Shown: in pieces, positions 28,924 to 57,028 of the stretch
Numbering within the stretch: the first letter of the stretch is position 1
Layout of the letters: the number at the start of each line of letters is the position of its first letter
NCBI RefSeq assembly: GCF_963675165.1
Contig: NC_087377.1
Location: 9,937,122 to 10,001,121 of the forward strand
Direction: 5' to 3'
Source: Halichondria panicea
Taxonomy: Eukaryota; Porifera; Demospongiae; Suberitida; Halichondriidae
Length of the DNA stretch: 64,000 nt
The notes under the pieces: model-generated
Seen by the model: the letters and a program-made list of their open reading frames with translations, nothing else
What the model was told of the DNA's origin: nothing
Databases searched by the model: none
Translations under genes and position numbers: made by a program

Positions 28924-31900
28924 ATGGAGTTTGGATATTGTAAGGCAGCAGTCAGCAAGACTCTAACCATGATTGCTCTACACGTGGTTTTCCTTTGTGT
29001 CTTTGCTGCTGCAGAAGATGAAGGTAACAAAACACAGCTAGATCCACTGAGGGTTAACCCCACTGAGCCAATAAGCTCTGAATGCAAGATAATGCCTGTC
29101 TGTTCATTATCTTGCATGCAGCAAATGTGATCAGTTTTCAACCAGAGAGAGACCTAATACCTGTTGGTCAACCAATGAGCTATACCTGCAAGGTTAAGGG
29201 TCGTGCGGTATGGGAGTTTGGTACTTATTACTACAATACAGCCTCCAGCGACTTTGTGGGGAATAGAAGCAATCTAAATGATGGAGTGAACATCACTGAC
29301 TTTACTGATGCAAGTGGCAATCATCTCTCCAAATTATTTCTTTCTTCGTCCATTGTACAAAGTCTGAATGATACAGACATGGCCTGTGGTGCAACAACAA
29401 GTCTAACCTTAAGACCAACTGAATACGAGCAGTTTAGAGTTAAAGTTTTCAGTAAGTTTTCAGGTTTATTGCACATCAGAAACTAATTCATACCCCCCCC
29501 CCACAGGTTCCCCCACTTCCCCTGGCAATGTGAGAGTGGTGTCAGAGAGGCAGAAAGAGGTCACTTTGACGTGGGAACCTTCGTTCCTGCCGTTCAACAT
29601 CTCCCCTCAGTACAAGGTGTATGTAGACGGTGTCGTCGAAGCTACGATGGAAAAGCCTTCTTTTGTGTTCTCAAGATCGGAGCACTCGTGTGATTCTCAC
29701 CAGATACAAGTTGAGGCGTACAATGAAGTTGGCAGTATCACCTCGGAGCACATTGAAGTGGTTTTACCTGCAGGTGTGTGTGTGTGTGTGTGTGTGTGTG
29801 TGTGTGTGTGTGTGTGTGTGTGTGTGTGTGTGTGTGTGTGTGTGTGTGTGTGTGTGTGTGTGTGTGTGTGTGTGTGTGTGTGTGTGTGTGTGTGTGTGTG
29901 TGTGTGTGTGTGTGTGTGTGTGTGTGTGTGTGTGTGTGTGTGTGTGTGTGTGTGTGTGTGTGTGTGTGTGTGTGTGTGTGTGTGTGTGTGTGTGTGTGTG
30001 TGTGTGTGTGTGTGTGTGTGTGTGTGTGTGTGTGTGTGTGTGTGTGTGTGTGTGTGTGTGTGTGGTGTGTGTGTGTGTGTGTGTGTGTGTGTGTGCAACA
30101 TGTATACATGTATATAGATACTTGTTCAGTGCATGATACAGTTACTCCATGCAAGCCATATATTCATTCTGGTCATAGCATGCAGTCAGTCAAGTTATTA
30201 AGACTTCAAGACCATGCACAAGTACAGTGCATCCAGTACAGTGCATCCAGTCTAAAGAGTAGAATACTAAAAATGTGTGAGTAGTTGTACTTAAATGTAA
30301 ATATCTTATGATTGGAACATTTTAAAGAAAATCTGCTGATACCATTGTGTAGTCTAATGAATAAGCTACAATATATCCAAAATGTTTTCCATGACAACAT
30401 AAGGTGGTGGGTTTGTGGTGATTAATAAAACAGTACCCAATTGTTATAGTGTAATCGGTTAGGGAGAGAAAAGGCCAACGGTTTCCGGCTAAGGTTTGGA
30501 ACTTTGTCACAACATCTATAGATAGTTTGGCTATCTTATGAAAGATTCGATGTTACTTAAATATCTACACATCCTCTGCAGTGCTCAAAATTGCTAGTTT
30601 TTAGTGCGGTTAGGGAGAGATTTGAAGAAAATCTTACGGCTAAGGTCTAAAATTACACGGAGTAAGCTTGAATAAATTGTCTGGCTTTTGATAAGAAAAA
30701 TTTTTCCAGAAATACTTTAGTTCCGGAGATAATTGATGTTACGCACATTTTTTTACGATCACCCCCATTATCACCTAAAATTATTTCCCACTACAACAAC
30801 TTTTGGGGAAATATTTTTGAATCATGTTGTAGCTTATTCTTTTACCTATACAATGGTATCAGCACAATTTCTTAGAAATGTTCCAATCTTGAGATACATT
30901 TAAGTACAACTACTCACCTATTTTGTATTCTACTCTCTAGACTGGATGCACTGTACAATTAAAATGTGCAATATTCTTGCTGCACAAAGTTTTGCAAGCA
31001 TCATGTATTATGACGTAATAACACACGTCACTGAAGGCTGATAGAGCTCTGTCAAAATAATAAGGAATAAACAGGAGAAACATAATTATGGCTTAAGCTG
31101 CCTTACAGGTTGGCTTACAATATAGACACAAAAAATAGATGCTATTTTTATCACTTCTAAATGTGTAGTCATAATTATAGCACCTACGGTATATACACTG
31201 TGACAGCATAGATAGAAGAAGGAAAGGAATTGGAAACGCAGTAGAACCCCTGTACTATAGGCTAGTTGCGTCATGTGAAAGGAAATGCCATATACTTAAC
31301 CCCTAAAGCACTATAATTTAACCTGGTTCCACATGGGGAAACCTCAGCTCCAAGAACAAACGAAGATAATAATTATTAACACAAAAAGAGGCAATTATGG
31401 ATAGTATCAAGTTTGTATTTCATGTTCAAGAAGAAGAGAAGAAGTTGACTGCCAGAGAGACGGTCCAGACTCCCTGAAAGCTTCTGGGAGTCTTCTAGAG
31501 CTTTGTGATTTCTATGATAAACACACCATGTACCATGGATAGAAGACACCAATCATTACACTATAATTATACAACAATTTTATCATGACATTTAACAATG
31601 CTCATACTTAGCACATGTATGTTGGTAAAGAAAGATTGATCTAGATACAGAAATGCTCGATTTATCCGGCACAAGTTCTCCTTGGCTTGACTTGAAAGGA
31701 CCACTTCTATCTTTGTCTAGCATTCCATACTCCCTCTTCAGGTTCCCCATGTCCTGTGTTTGAACTGCTGATAATCATAATACACAGTACAGTCATGTAC
31801 TTATGGGCATAACATAATTATAATAATGCCACAATAATTATTGTATAAAACCACAACTAAAACAAGTGATTGAGCCTTCATAAAAAAGTGTATAGCTATC

Positions 31901-56300: not shown

Positions 56301-57028
56301 ATGTTACAGTATATGTATACATACGTACGTTGTCCAATTAAAAAAGTGATTTTAATCATAATACGTGCCAGATTCTACTGTTGGAGCTATTTCTGGTGGT
56401 GCTGTTGGTGGGATACTGGTGCTGGTGTGTCTTATTGCTATTGTCTTGATTTCCCTACTCTTATTGAGGAGAAAGCTTTCTAGTGAGGAACAAAGAGCTG
56501 TAGCTGCTCCACTGTACGAGGAGATGGGTCCTTCAGGAAATTACATTCAACTCCAGCCCAATGATGCATATGGAAAGGTATATATGCATGCAAGAGTTCA
56601 TTAGGAAGAGTACGCAACTCCAATAGACTGTACACAAAAAGCATTCCTCCAATCATACGTCACAGATACTGGTTGTAGTAACCGCAAATAGCAGGAAAGG
56701 CAATGAATAAAATTAGTAACTATGTATTCATTGCCTTTCCTACTGGCAGTTGTAAATGAATAACATTAGTGTTCACAATCATCACTATGTTATTCATTGC
56801 AAATTTGATTTCACAGTTTATACAACAGCATGTGGCTGCGACGTAAGATTGGAGAAACGCCCCCTATAGTTTTAGTGGAGTTGCGTACTCTTCCTAATGA
56901 ACTCTTGATGCATGTTATACAGAATGATGTGATTTGTTAAAATTATATGATATACATGTGTCACAACACCGCATGCATGCATGCAGGCTATTAGATGCTC
57001 CATGCAGGGGCATTCAACTGCAACCTAA
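47305..57028 (+). CDS. Ig/FN3 type I transmembrane receptor (gene 2), intact
   Basis: Nine exons, 1572 coding bases (523 residues): 47305-47404 signal peptide, 47515-47844 Ig, 47904-48170 FN3, 49439-49524 plus 50292-50502 second FN3, 52800-52900 and 54573-54801 membrane-proximal domain, 56372-56577 helix and tail (PLYEEM, IQLQPNDAYGK), 56987-57028 final exon. Exons 1-7 equal gene 1 in length; the Ig domain is closely similar to that of gene 1. The final exon carries the same four-base insertion as copy A, so the protein ends HSTAT and lacks the last NQAY motif of gene 1. Exons 6-9 lie in duplicated block B. Introns contain MITEs. Likely surface recognition or adhesion receptor; a divergent promoter is shared with the broken minus-strand receptor. 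Confidence 0.88.
48262..48410. repeat. Inverted repeat cluster in intron 3 of gene 2
   Basis: GGTCTCCTGATTT...AAATCAGGAGACCGG and CGGCTCACG...GTGAGCCCGC pair across about 130 bp, with internal GTTTAGTAAA copies. Probably a decayed MITE. Confidence 0.55.
48564..48828. mobile_element. MITE with 35-bp inverted ends and 7-bp TSD
   Basis: The left end CAAGGGCGTATGAAGAGAAG and its inverted copy at the right are near perfect over about 35 bp. ATAGTAC flanks both ends (48557-48563 and 48829-48835). No ORF with support. Intron 3 of gene 2. Confidence 0.8.
53023..53342. repeat. Foldback element, copy B
   Basis: Counterpart of 1951-2270 with a few substitutions (for example TACGACTCC for TAGGACTCC). 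Intron 6 of gene 2. Confidence 0.75.
53524..53921. mobile_element. CAG...CTG transposon, copy B
   Basis: Counterpart of 2444-2840 with the same GTAGG target duplication, so it inserted before the large duplication. Confidence 0.85.
55148..55350. mobile_element. TATAGCGGGTAATTTT MITE, copy B
   Basis: Counterpart of 4065-4267 with minor substitutions. Intron 7 of gene 2. Confidence 0.7.
55621..56018. mobile_element. Pogo-like MITE, copy B
   Basis: Counterpart of 4528-4925, same TA flanks, same length. Confidence 0.8.
56592..56907. repeat. Foldback MITE, copy B
   Basis: Counterpart of 5499-5814. Last intron of gene 2. Confidence 0.75.

Follow-up and report, generated by a model that had tools for sequence, protein, structure and literature searches.

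Paired receptors are defined by similar ectodomains that carry opposite signals, by an immunoreceptor tyrosine-based inhibitory motif (ITIM) on the inhibitory side, and by clustering of their genes (PMC3533184). Here, we describe a family of modular, tyrosine-tailed membrane receptors in the sponge Halichondria panicea, present in a 64,000-nucleotide stretch of contig C1 (NC_087377.1:9937122-10001121, hereafter the window) and in a larger cluster on the same contig. Like vertebrate paired receptors such as KIR, LILR and CEACAM, the sponge genes are clustered and carry similar ectodomains on ITIM and non-ITIM tails, and like the LILR genes they form subclusters in opposite orientation (PMC3533184). 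Unlike the vertebrate receptors, the sponge ectodomain adds fibronectin type III (FN3) and complement control protein (CCP) modules to its immunoglobulin (Ig)-like domain, and the sponge non-ITIM tail bears its own YEEV and NxAY motifs in place of a charged transmembrane (TM) residue and an adaptor with an immunoreceptor tyrosine-based activation motif (ITAM).

Among invertebrates, the fester co-receptors (FcoR) of Botryllus resemble the sponge genes in being type I proteins with Ig and sushi domains and long tails bearing ITIM, hemITAM or core Y-x-x-I/L/V motifs, with 53 loci so far (PMC12065747). They differ in their order of a V-type Ig, a sushi and two C2-type Ig domains, with no FN3 named in the accessible part of that article; the comparison is one of architecture. 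Each FcoR moreover pairs with a fester-family protein, and the locus is tied to allorecognition by genetics (PMC12065747). The Hydractinia Alr genes are likewise clustered Ig-like receptors with ITIM- or ITAM-type tyrosine motifs, and FN3 or CCP modules go unmentioned in the accessible parts of the two accounts (PMC12065747, PMC11999971). In sponges, the Geodia adhesion molecules are surface or recognition molecules with Ig-like domains, as in the present cluster, whereas the aggregation factor is an extracellular proteoglycan complex (PMC11999971). The candidate allorecognition proteins of sponges, cnidarians and ascidians show no conservation among them, and ITIM and hemITAM tails connect Botryllus and Hydractinia to mammalian pathways (PMC12065747). 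The ITIM accounts concern tunicates, Hydractinia, molluscs, C-type lectins and vertebrates (PMC12065747, PMC11999971, PMC9505182, PMC3533184). A search of the open-access literature by title and start of abstract, with closed-access literature and other sponge genomes outside its range, found no description of ITIM receptors in sponges.

We consider it marginally probable that the window genes A and B, together with the C1 cluster, form a paired-receptor-like signalling system in a sponge.

The C1 cluster, its tail classes and their ectodomains

The window lies at the margin of a receptor cluster of far greater extent, with A and B as outlying members. The assembly (131.46 Mb in 39 contigs) was searched with the Ig-like exon of the C-type genes, named after gene C on the minus strand of the window, which gave 70 matches at E values up to 1 and 48 at up to 1e-5; a second class of Ig-like exon, queried with locus L018, gave 113 matches at E values up to 1e-3. 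When the 48 and the 113 matches were merged, the two classes occupied 114 distinct places, all on C1, with 109 of them at 11.31-13.90 Mb (2.6 Mb; 88 on the plus and 21 on the minus strand), three at 9.8-10.05 Mb and two at 14.7-14.9 Mb; these are counts of exon places rather than genes, fragments and stop-bearing places included. The tail exon with two ITIMs (VVYAAL and VTYATV) gave 22 matches at E values up to 0.1, all at C1 11.41-13.81 Mb, 17 of them on the minus strand and five with a stop. Neither the Ig-like nor the ITIM-exon queries had a match off C1 at the cut-offs used, which for the C-type Ig-like exon was an E value of 1e-5. The earlier note, made from the window alone, had proposed a clustered, duplicating family of modular tyrosine-tailed receptors, and the cluster extends that family far beyond the window. 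Among the matches listed for the kinase domain PF07714 (the best 129 of 1749 candidates, a weak check), none lies at C1 11.3-13.9 Mb, and the idea of receptor tyrosine kinases was dropped. Ig-like matches of equal score recur between 11.69 and 13.67 Mb at near-constant spacings (about 717.6, 567.3-567.5 and 1319.6 kb), which point to probable large segmental duplications inside the cluster.

Gene models were built by paralogue comparison at the DNA and protein levels, including splice sites. Seven minus-strand loci (L018-L023 and L028) encode an FN3 domain, three CCP exons and a TM segment. Their first tail exon (GDYSEL) is present in all seven, and the exons with EGYSRV, with LTYDEV and with two ITIMs are each present in six. 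The ITIM consensus is [SIVL]xYxx[ILV]. In the model of L022, all five tail tyrosines stand in YxxL/V, and three of the five (LTYDEV, VVYAAL and VTYATV) fit the consensus (100,000 shuffles, P 4e-5 and 3e-4, respectively). Of the 22 loci scanned (L009-L028, L050 and L051), 14 show the tail pattern Y[DE]E[VIM]...AY, and the remaining eight are the seven ITIM-type loci and gene G (L016), which has SPLYDEI three times. The plus-strand loci L050, L051 and L052 (the last in part only) have a similar CCP3 followed by a different TM and tail, of the YEEV class in all three, which reads VYEEV or AYEEV and then NQAYGPL in the two followed to their end. This YEEV...NQAYGPL tail resembles that of A (E 9e-6). 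L051 is open in every exon found, and L050, with a frame break in CCP2, may be broken. Matches to the YDEI tail of C and G are confined to the neighbourhood of the window: the 13 obtained (E up to 1e-3) all lie at C1 9.31-9.99 Mb and comprise, typed by position, six of the YDEI and seven of the A/B type.

The ectodomains do not follow this division. L051, with a YEEV tail, and L018, with an ITIM tail, share 96% protein identity in the Ig-like domain, 98% in FN3, 91% in CCP1, 92% in CCP2 and 84% in CCP3, and their DNA is 95.3% identical over 1.2 kb, introns included, whereas their TM and tail regions gave no match at an E value of 1e-3. The second near match to L051 is L023, again of the ITIM type. 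L050 and L051, by contrast, are 91% identical in TM and tail and only 33% in the Ig-like domain, with no CCP1 match. L018, L023 and L051 split from the rest in trees of FN3+CCP2+CCP3 (support 98; 11 sequences) and of FN3 (100; 11 sequences), and L051 grouped with L050 in the CCP3 tree (80; 12 sequences); several internal nodes of these trees were poorly supported. The ectodomain trees thus cross the tail classes, and we read this as exchange between ectodomains and tails, with a breakpoint near CCP3.

Constraint in the C-type family rises from the outermost domain to the ITIM exon, the outer domains being less constrained. Pooled pN/pS, for which the pairs are not independent, the sets differ between domains and the sequences are paralogues and not alleles, was 0.78 for the Ig-like domain (10 pairs; L020, with 20 residues, L016, the same gene as G, and C omitted), 0.56 for FN3 (21 pairs; L021, with a stop, and C omitted), 0.49 for CCP1 (28), 0.54 for CCP2 (36), 0.40 for CCP3 (28) and 0.42 for TM (21). 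The tail exons gave 0.22 (GDYSEL, 21 pairs), 0.27 (LTYDEV, 15) and 0.14 (two ITIMs, 15). Six closer pairs of the Ig-like domain had ratios of 0.57-1.29. For CCP1, L018 differs from L051 and L023 by 6.5 and 7.5 nonsynonymous to 0.5 synonymous changes (ratios 4.6-5.3), an excess in close pairs that is suggestive, although the counts are tiny.

Genes of the window, their domains and their constraint

The window and neighbouring stretches were joined into a 221-kb region, in which negative coordinates lie left of the window start. The features of the window are as follows.

28924..37824, plus strand: gene A, complete, nine exons (splice sites from paralogue comparison; open frame of 528 residues)
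28924-29023, plus: exon 1 of A, signal peptide
29122-29451, plus: exon 2 of A, Ig-like domain
29507-29773, plus: exon 3 of A, first FN3 domain
32887-32972 and 34415-34625, plus: exons 4 and 5 of A, second FN3 domain, split
34764-34864 and 36403-36631, plus: exons 6 and 7 of A, third domain, FN3-like with cysteine, split
37500-37699, plus: exon 8 of A, TM and PIYEEV...NDAYGK
37762-37824, plus: exon 9 of A, NQAYELAI and stop
47305..57028, plus strand: gene B, complete, nine exons on the plan of A (open frame of 523 residues)
47305-47404, 47515-47844 and 47904-48170, plus: exons 1, 2 (Ig-like) and 3 (FN3) of B
49439-49524 and 50292-50502, plus: second FN3 domain of B, split
52800-52900 and 54573-54801, plus: FN3-like third domain of B, split
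56372-56577, plus: TM and PLYEEM...NDAYGK of B
56987-57028 or 57008-57028, plus: last exon of B (alternative acceptor)
1-5.9 kb, plus strand: gene B', a copy of B cut by the left window edge, with exons at 1728-1828, 3490-3718 and 5279-5484
44750..47060, minus strand: gene C, broken (paralogue comparison; Sushi just below the Pfam cut-off)
about 47.0 kb, 46878-46613 and 46533-46298, minus: signal, Ig-like and FN3 exons of C
about 46200-46078 (stop inside), 45962-45753 and 45663-45499, minus: CCP exons of C
to 44973 and 44832-44752, minus: TM and tail of C (SLYDEI...NSAYGQ) and its last tail exon
40729..41228, minus strand: TM and tail fragment of a C-type gene, SPLYDEI...NSAYGQ (tail comparison)
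11808..13017, minus strand: gene D, FN3-like exons, TM, and a tail with VYEDP...NLAYEHI and GIYEEI...NLAYGYV (open frames, tail exon)

A and B share a type I plan of signal peptide, Ig-like domain, three FN3-type domains, TM and a short tail with YEEV or YEEM and NxAY. The last exon of B is frameshifted relative to A and is without the NQAYEL motif; its two acceptors give 523 or 516 residues, both ending at the stop at 57028. The first five exons of B' lie left of the window (-3753 to -574), its frame is open across exons 1-8, and five coding substitutions separate it from B over these exons, with four of the five in exon 4. Two further A-type genes lie beyond the window: A' is broken by a deletion in exon 3 and a TM exon short of 25 nucleotides, and for A'' a search of 39 kb downstream recovered no recognisable A-type TM exon. 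On the minus strand, C and its copy C' share 1- and 5-nucleotide deletions in the Ig-like exon, with the homologue G as the reference, and a stop interrupts the first CCP exon of C. G lies at about -69 to -71 kb with an open Ig-like exon, and may itself be broken too, because its CCP2 match ends after 46 of 70 residues. At about -70.9 to -71.1 kb, its tail consists of three tandem units of SPLYDEI plus spacer, where C has a single unit; the number of signalling motifs varies through an internal repeat. No ectodomain exon was found beside the tail fragment, and a copy of D at about 63.7-64.9 kb runs past the window end.

These models uphold much of the earlier note: its two complete and one partial plus-strand genes (A and B open, B' open over exons 1-8 beyond the window edge), its three kinds of minus-strand relatives (C at 47.06-44.75 kb, the tail-only fragment at 41.2-40.7 kb and D at 13.0-11.8 kb), and its pseudogenes and orphan fragments, namely the frame-broken C and C' and the tail without an ectodomain. 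Other statements held in part. The phase-1 exons it described agree with the introns between the domains of A, but phase 0 applies to the tail intron and to those that split the second and the third FN3-type domain. A build of Ig, FN3 and CCP modules is borne out for FN3 in A and CCP in C; CCP modules were seen in the window only in C, with none found in A or B, and the Ig label is pattern-based. Related tyrosine motifs do recur in the YEEV, YEEM and YDEI...NxAY tails, with the exception of the NQAYEL motif in B.

Profile matches back the FN3 and CCP domains. In A, Pfam fn3 scored 29.5 bits (cut-off 25) in one stretch at residues 255-323, with a fibronectin match in the PDB (E 2e-4); the other two FN3-type labels are by pattern, the first FN3 having weak PDB matches as well. 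The C-type L022 matched Pfam Sushi at 46.7 bits (cut-off 20.7), but its fn3 score, 19 bits, was too low for the cut-off of that profile. In C, one CCP exon fell just under the Sushi cut-off (20.4 bits, E 7e-4). Two exons of D had no FN3 match in Pfam, and their FN3-like label is by pattern. For the first domain, the Pfam search gave no match in A and no Ig-type match in L022, and weak Ig matches in L018 (E 0.05-0.08; Ig_2 at 0.05). The best PDB match of the C-type first domain was the poliovirus receptor (E 0.2, weak), and that of A matched only two designed-protein chains (E 4e-5 and 6e-5, with no single stretch passing by itself) and two entries at E values of about 1; the designed-protein match was regarded as spurious. 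The A-type and C-type first domains aligned weakly along a Cys...Trp...Cys pattern (hhalign E 0.005, probability 7%).

The match of L022 to complement factor H (PDB, E 2.5e-5) bears on a different reading, in which the genes belong to a birth-and-death expansion of innate receptors that sense microbes or symbionts, and overreaction is held in check by a threshold which the ITIM tail sets. CCP modules like those of complement regulators, the large copy number and the weaker constraint on the outer domains all agree with it, and vertebrate paired receptors are viewed as binding both self and non-self ligands (PMC3533184). The window genes A and B, however, are conserved and not diverse, and we hold this reading to be somewhat unlikely.

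A and B belong to a small, constrained family under purifying selection, with all dN/dS values between paralogues below 1. A search of the assembly with their Ig-like exon found five places (E 3e-70 to 5e-59), which together span no more than 92 kb, at C1 9.917-10.009 Mb; exon 7, of the third FN3-type domain, likewise has five. Pairwise Nei-Gojobori estimates (signal-peptide exon left out for pairs with B, which has indels) were 0.21-0.34 for the Ig-like exon in six pairs of A, B, A' and A'', and, over the three pairs of A, B and A'', 0.07-0.25 for the first, 0.33-0.64 for the second and 0.15-0.21 for the third FN3-type domain; TM and tail gave 0.44 in the A-B pair only. The earlier note had proposed a self/non-self recognition locus and had named purifying selection as a sign against it, and this sign is what the A/B paralogues display in the domains tested. 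The clustered, modular, tyrosine-tailed family survives from that proposal, and the evidence points to paired signalling receptors more than to an allorecognition locus. In Hydractinia, Alr alleles control fusion. That the receptors or the cluster decide fusion or rejection between sponge individuals would suit the clustered, duplicated and modular genes, tyrosine tails, pseudogenes and exchanged modules, as well as the likeness to the Botryllus co-receptors with their V-type Ig, sushi and C2-type Ig domains (PMC12065747). We nevertheless judge it improbable, given the purifying selection on A and B, and no finding here connects the cluster with fusion or with the aggregation factors of sponges, although no search was aimed at an aggregation-factor link.

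The same purifying selection is in line with ordinary adhesion or tissue-organising receptors that signal through Src and PTB adaptors and were duplicated in tandem without immune meaning. FN3 domains are also common in the genome (at least 150 matches, as the best 150 of 808 candidates), and positive selection is not demonstrated. Near-identical ectodomains on different tails and the steep constraint gradient are unexpected for plain adhesion molecules, however, and we regard this explanation as unlikely. The three functional alternatives, allorecognition, microbe or symbiont sensing and adhesion, overlap with the paired-receptor reading.

Duplication and repeats around the window

Two further features belong to the surroundings of the A-type genes.

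32445..64000, on to 70364 outside the window: right copy of a recent direct duplication, with the left copy at -18565..18873
29774..30095: (GT)n microsatellite of 161 units, immediately next to the 5' splice site of exon 3 in gene A, in the same intron as the duplication breakpoint

The duplication spans about 38 kb, and a 24.7-kb block has 73 substitutions (99.25% identity), in agreement with the recent duplication noted earlier. A block nearer the right end has 79 substitutions in 5.1 kb, 59 of them in the one kb with a minisatellite; a rise of divergence along the duplication was considered and dropped, since these 59 sit in that single kb. The left breakpoint interrupts the A-type genes in their third intron, next to a (GT)n array, and exons 1-3 of A and A' upstream of it are 93% alike; we read the duplication as a probable product of unequal crossing-over between A-type genes. 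At 99.25% identity over 24.7 kb, two haplotypes set in tandem by the assembly might look the same, as alleles can be this similar. Among the matches listed, however, none links the upstream flank of A' with that of A, a retroelement-bearing stretch separates the copies, A'', located after the second copy, shows 9% divergence from A across the 0.95 kb that contains exons 1-3, and the sole N run of the 221-kb region lies 91 kb from the window start and not at a junction. The differing flanks and the intervening retroelement therefore disfavour a false haplotype duplication, which we consider quite improbable.

The retroelement, at window 20223-25380 on the plus strand, is DIRS/Ngaro-like: its open frames at 23162-25377 match a reverse transcriptase, an RNase H-like domain and, weakly, a tyrosine recombinase. 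Two related minisatellites with units of about 27-30 bases (14861-15192 and 15463-16118) are also present in the second copy. The length of the (GT)n array could affect the splicing of gene A.

Candidate signalling partners and the paired-receptor reading

Several properties of vertebrate paired receptors have a counterpart in the sponge. L018 and L051 carry similar ectodomains on different tails, the genes cluster on one chromosome, and the putative inhibitory members have ITIMs at the motif level. Another, the combination of a short tail, a charged TM residue and an ITAM adaptor on the activating members, was absent from A, B, L050 and L051, whose TM segments by eye contain no Arg, Lys, Asp or Glu. 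An ITAM in the tails of A and B was looked for by eye and rejected, as the motifs do not fit ITAM spacing.

YEEV is a good Src-family SH2 site, and NxxY is a PTB site. The genome has 71 SH2 matches, including three tandem genes on contig C2 with adjoining SH2 and kinase domains. On contig C3, SH2, SH2 and protein tyrosine phosphatase (PTP) domains follow in this order within 1.8 kb, the plan of a candidate SHP phosphatase; of the two SH2 matches, the first is incomplete and continues across a stop, as would happen at an intron. Contig C4 (about 0.04-2.6 Mb) contains very many PTP exons among the matches listed, apparently a large expansion. Tandem clusters of tyrosine-kinase-like domains with long open frames were seen at C10 1.70-1.94 Mb and C15 4.00-4.03 Mb. 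The one COX1 match, at C1:5280527-5280718, is a nuclear fragment of the mitochondrial gene with two TGA codons and a demosponge-like look.

The gene models, the FN3 and CCP domains, the tails, the duplication, the ectodomain-tail exchange, the constraint gradient and the SH2-SH2-PTP gene are observed; for the remainder of the model, we infer phosphorylation, partners, opposite outputs, ligand and immune role. In this model, a common, less constrained ectodomain of Ig-like, FN3 and three CCP domains leads into either of two tails, one strongly conserved with several ITIMs and the other of the YEEV...NQAYG kind, while C and G, close to the window, have a third kind, YDEI. On ligand binding, Src-family kinases would phosphorylate the tail tyrosines. 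YEEV or YDEI may then recruit SH2 kinases or adaptors, and NxxY may recruit PTB adaptors, for an activating or adhesive output, while the ITIM tail would recruit an SHP-type phosphatase for an inhibitory one. The cell would weigh both outputs against one set of ligands.

Several findings weigh against this reading. Few cluster genes were read, and some of those are broken: in the sample, L021 has a stop in FN3, L050 the frame break in CCP2, and G the curtailed CCP2 match. The seven ITIM loci were found via TM similarity to A and are not a random sample, and L020, the seventh, was classed by its first tail exon only. For only five of the 22 ITIM exons does an Ig-like exon of either class lie upstream on the same strand at a distance of up to 3 kb, and for two more at up to 20 kb; the other 15 lack one within 30 kb, so that many of the ITIM tails may be fragments or parts of genes with different ectodomains. 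Because the YEEV tail is without an ITAM and the TM segment without a charged residue, an 'activating' output is a guess. Since Pfam and PDB matches of the first domain are absent, weak or doubtful, 'Ig-like' is kept as a pattern-based label for a putative Ig fold. The small number of A/B ectodomains and the purifying selection on them contrast with the fast evolution of a recognition front, and the C-type ratios above 1 rest on very few changes.

A fuller form of the paired-receptor reading, to which we give a chance slightly short of even, is that of a true sponge paired-receptor system. Perhaps a hundred genes on one chromosome would hold an exchangeable Ig-FN3-CCP repertoire joined to inhibitory multi-ITIM/SHP tails or to Src-SH2/PTB (YEEV-NxAY) tails, with A and B as conserved outliers, and the system would either date back to the origin of animals or have reached the logic of natural killer (NK) receptors independently. 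If true, the balance of inhibitory and activating receptors would extend to an early branch of the animals, and the cluster would provide a concrete set of genes with which to test what sponge fusion and rejection, or the sorting of symbionts, depends on.

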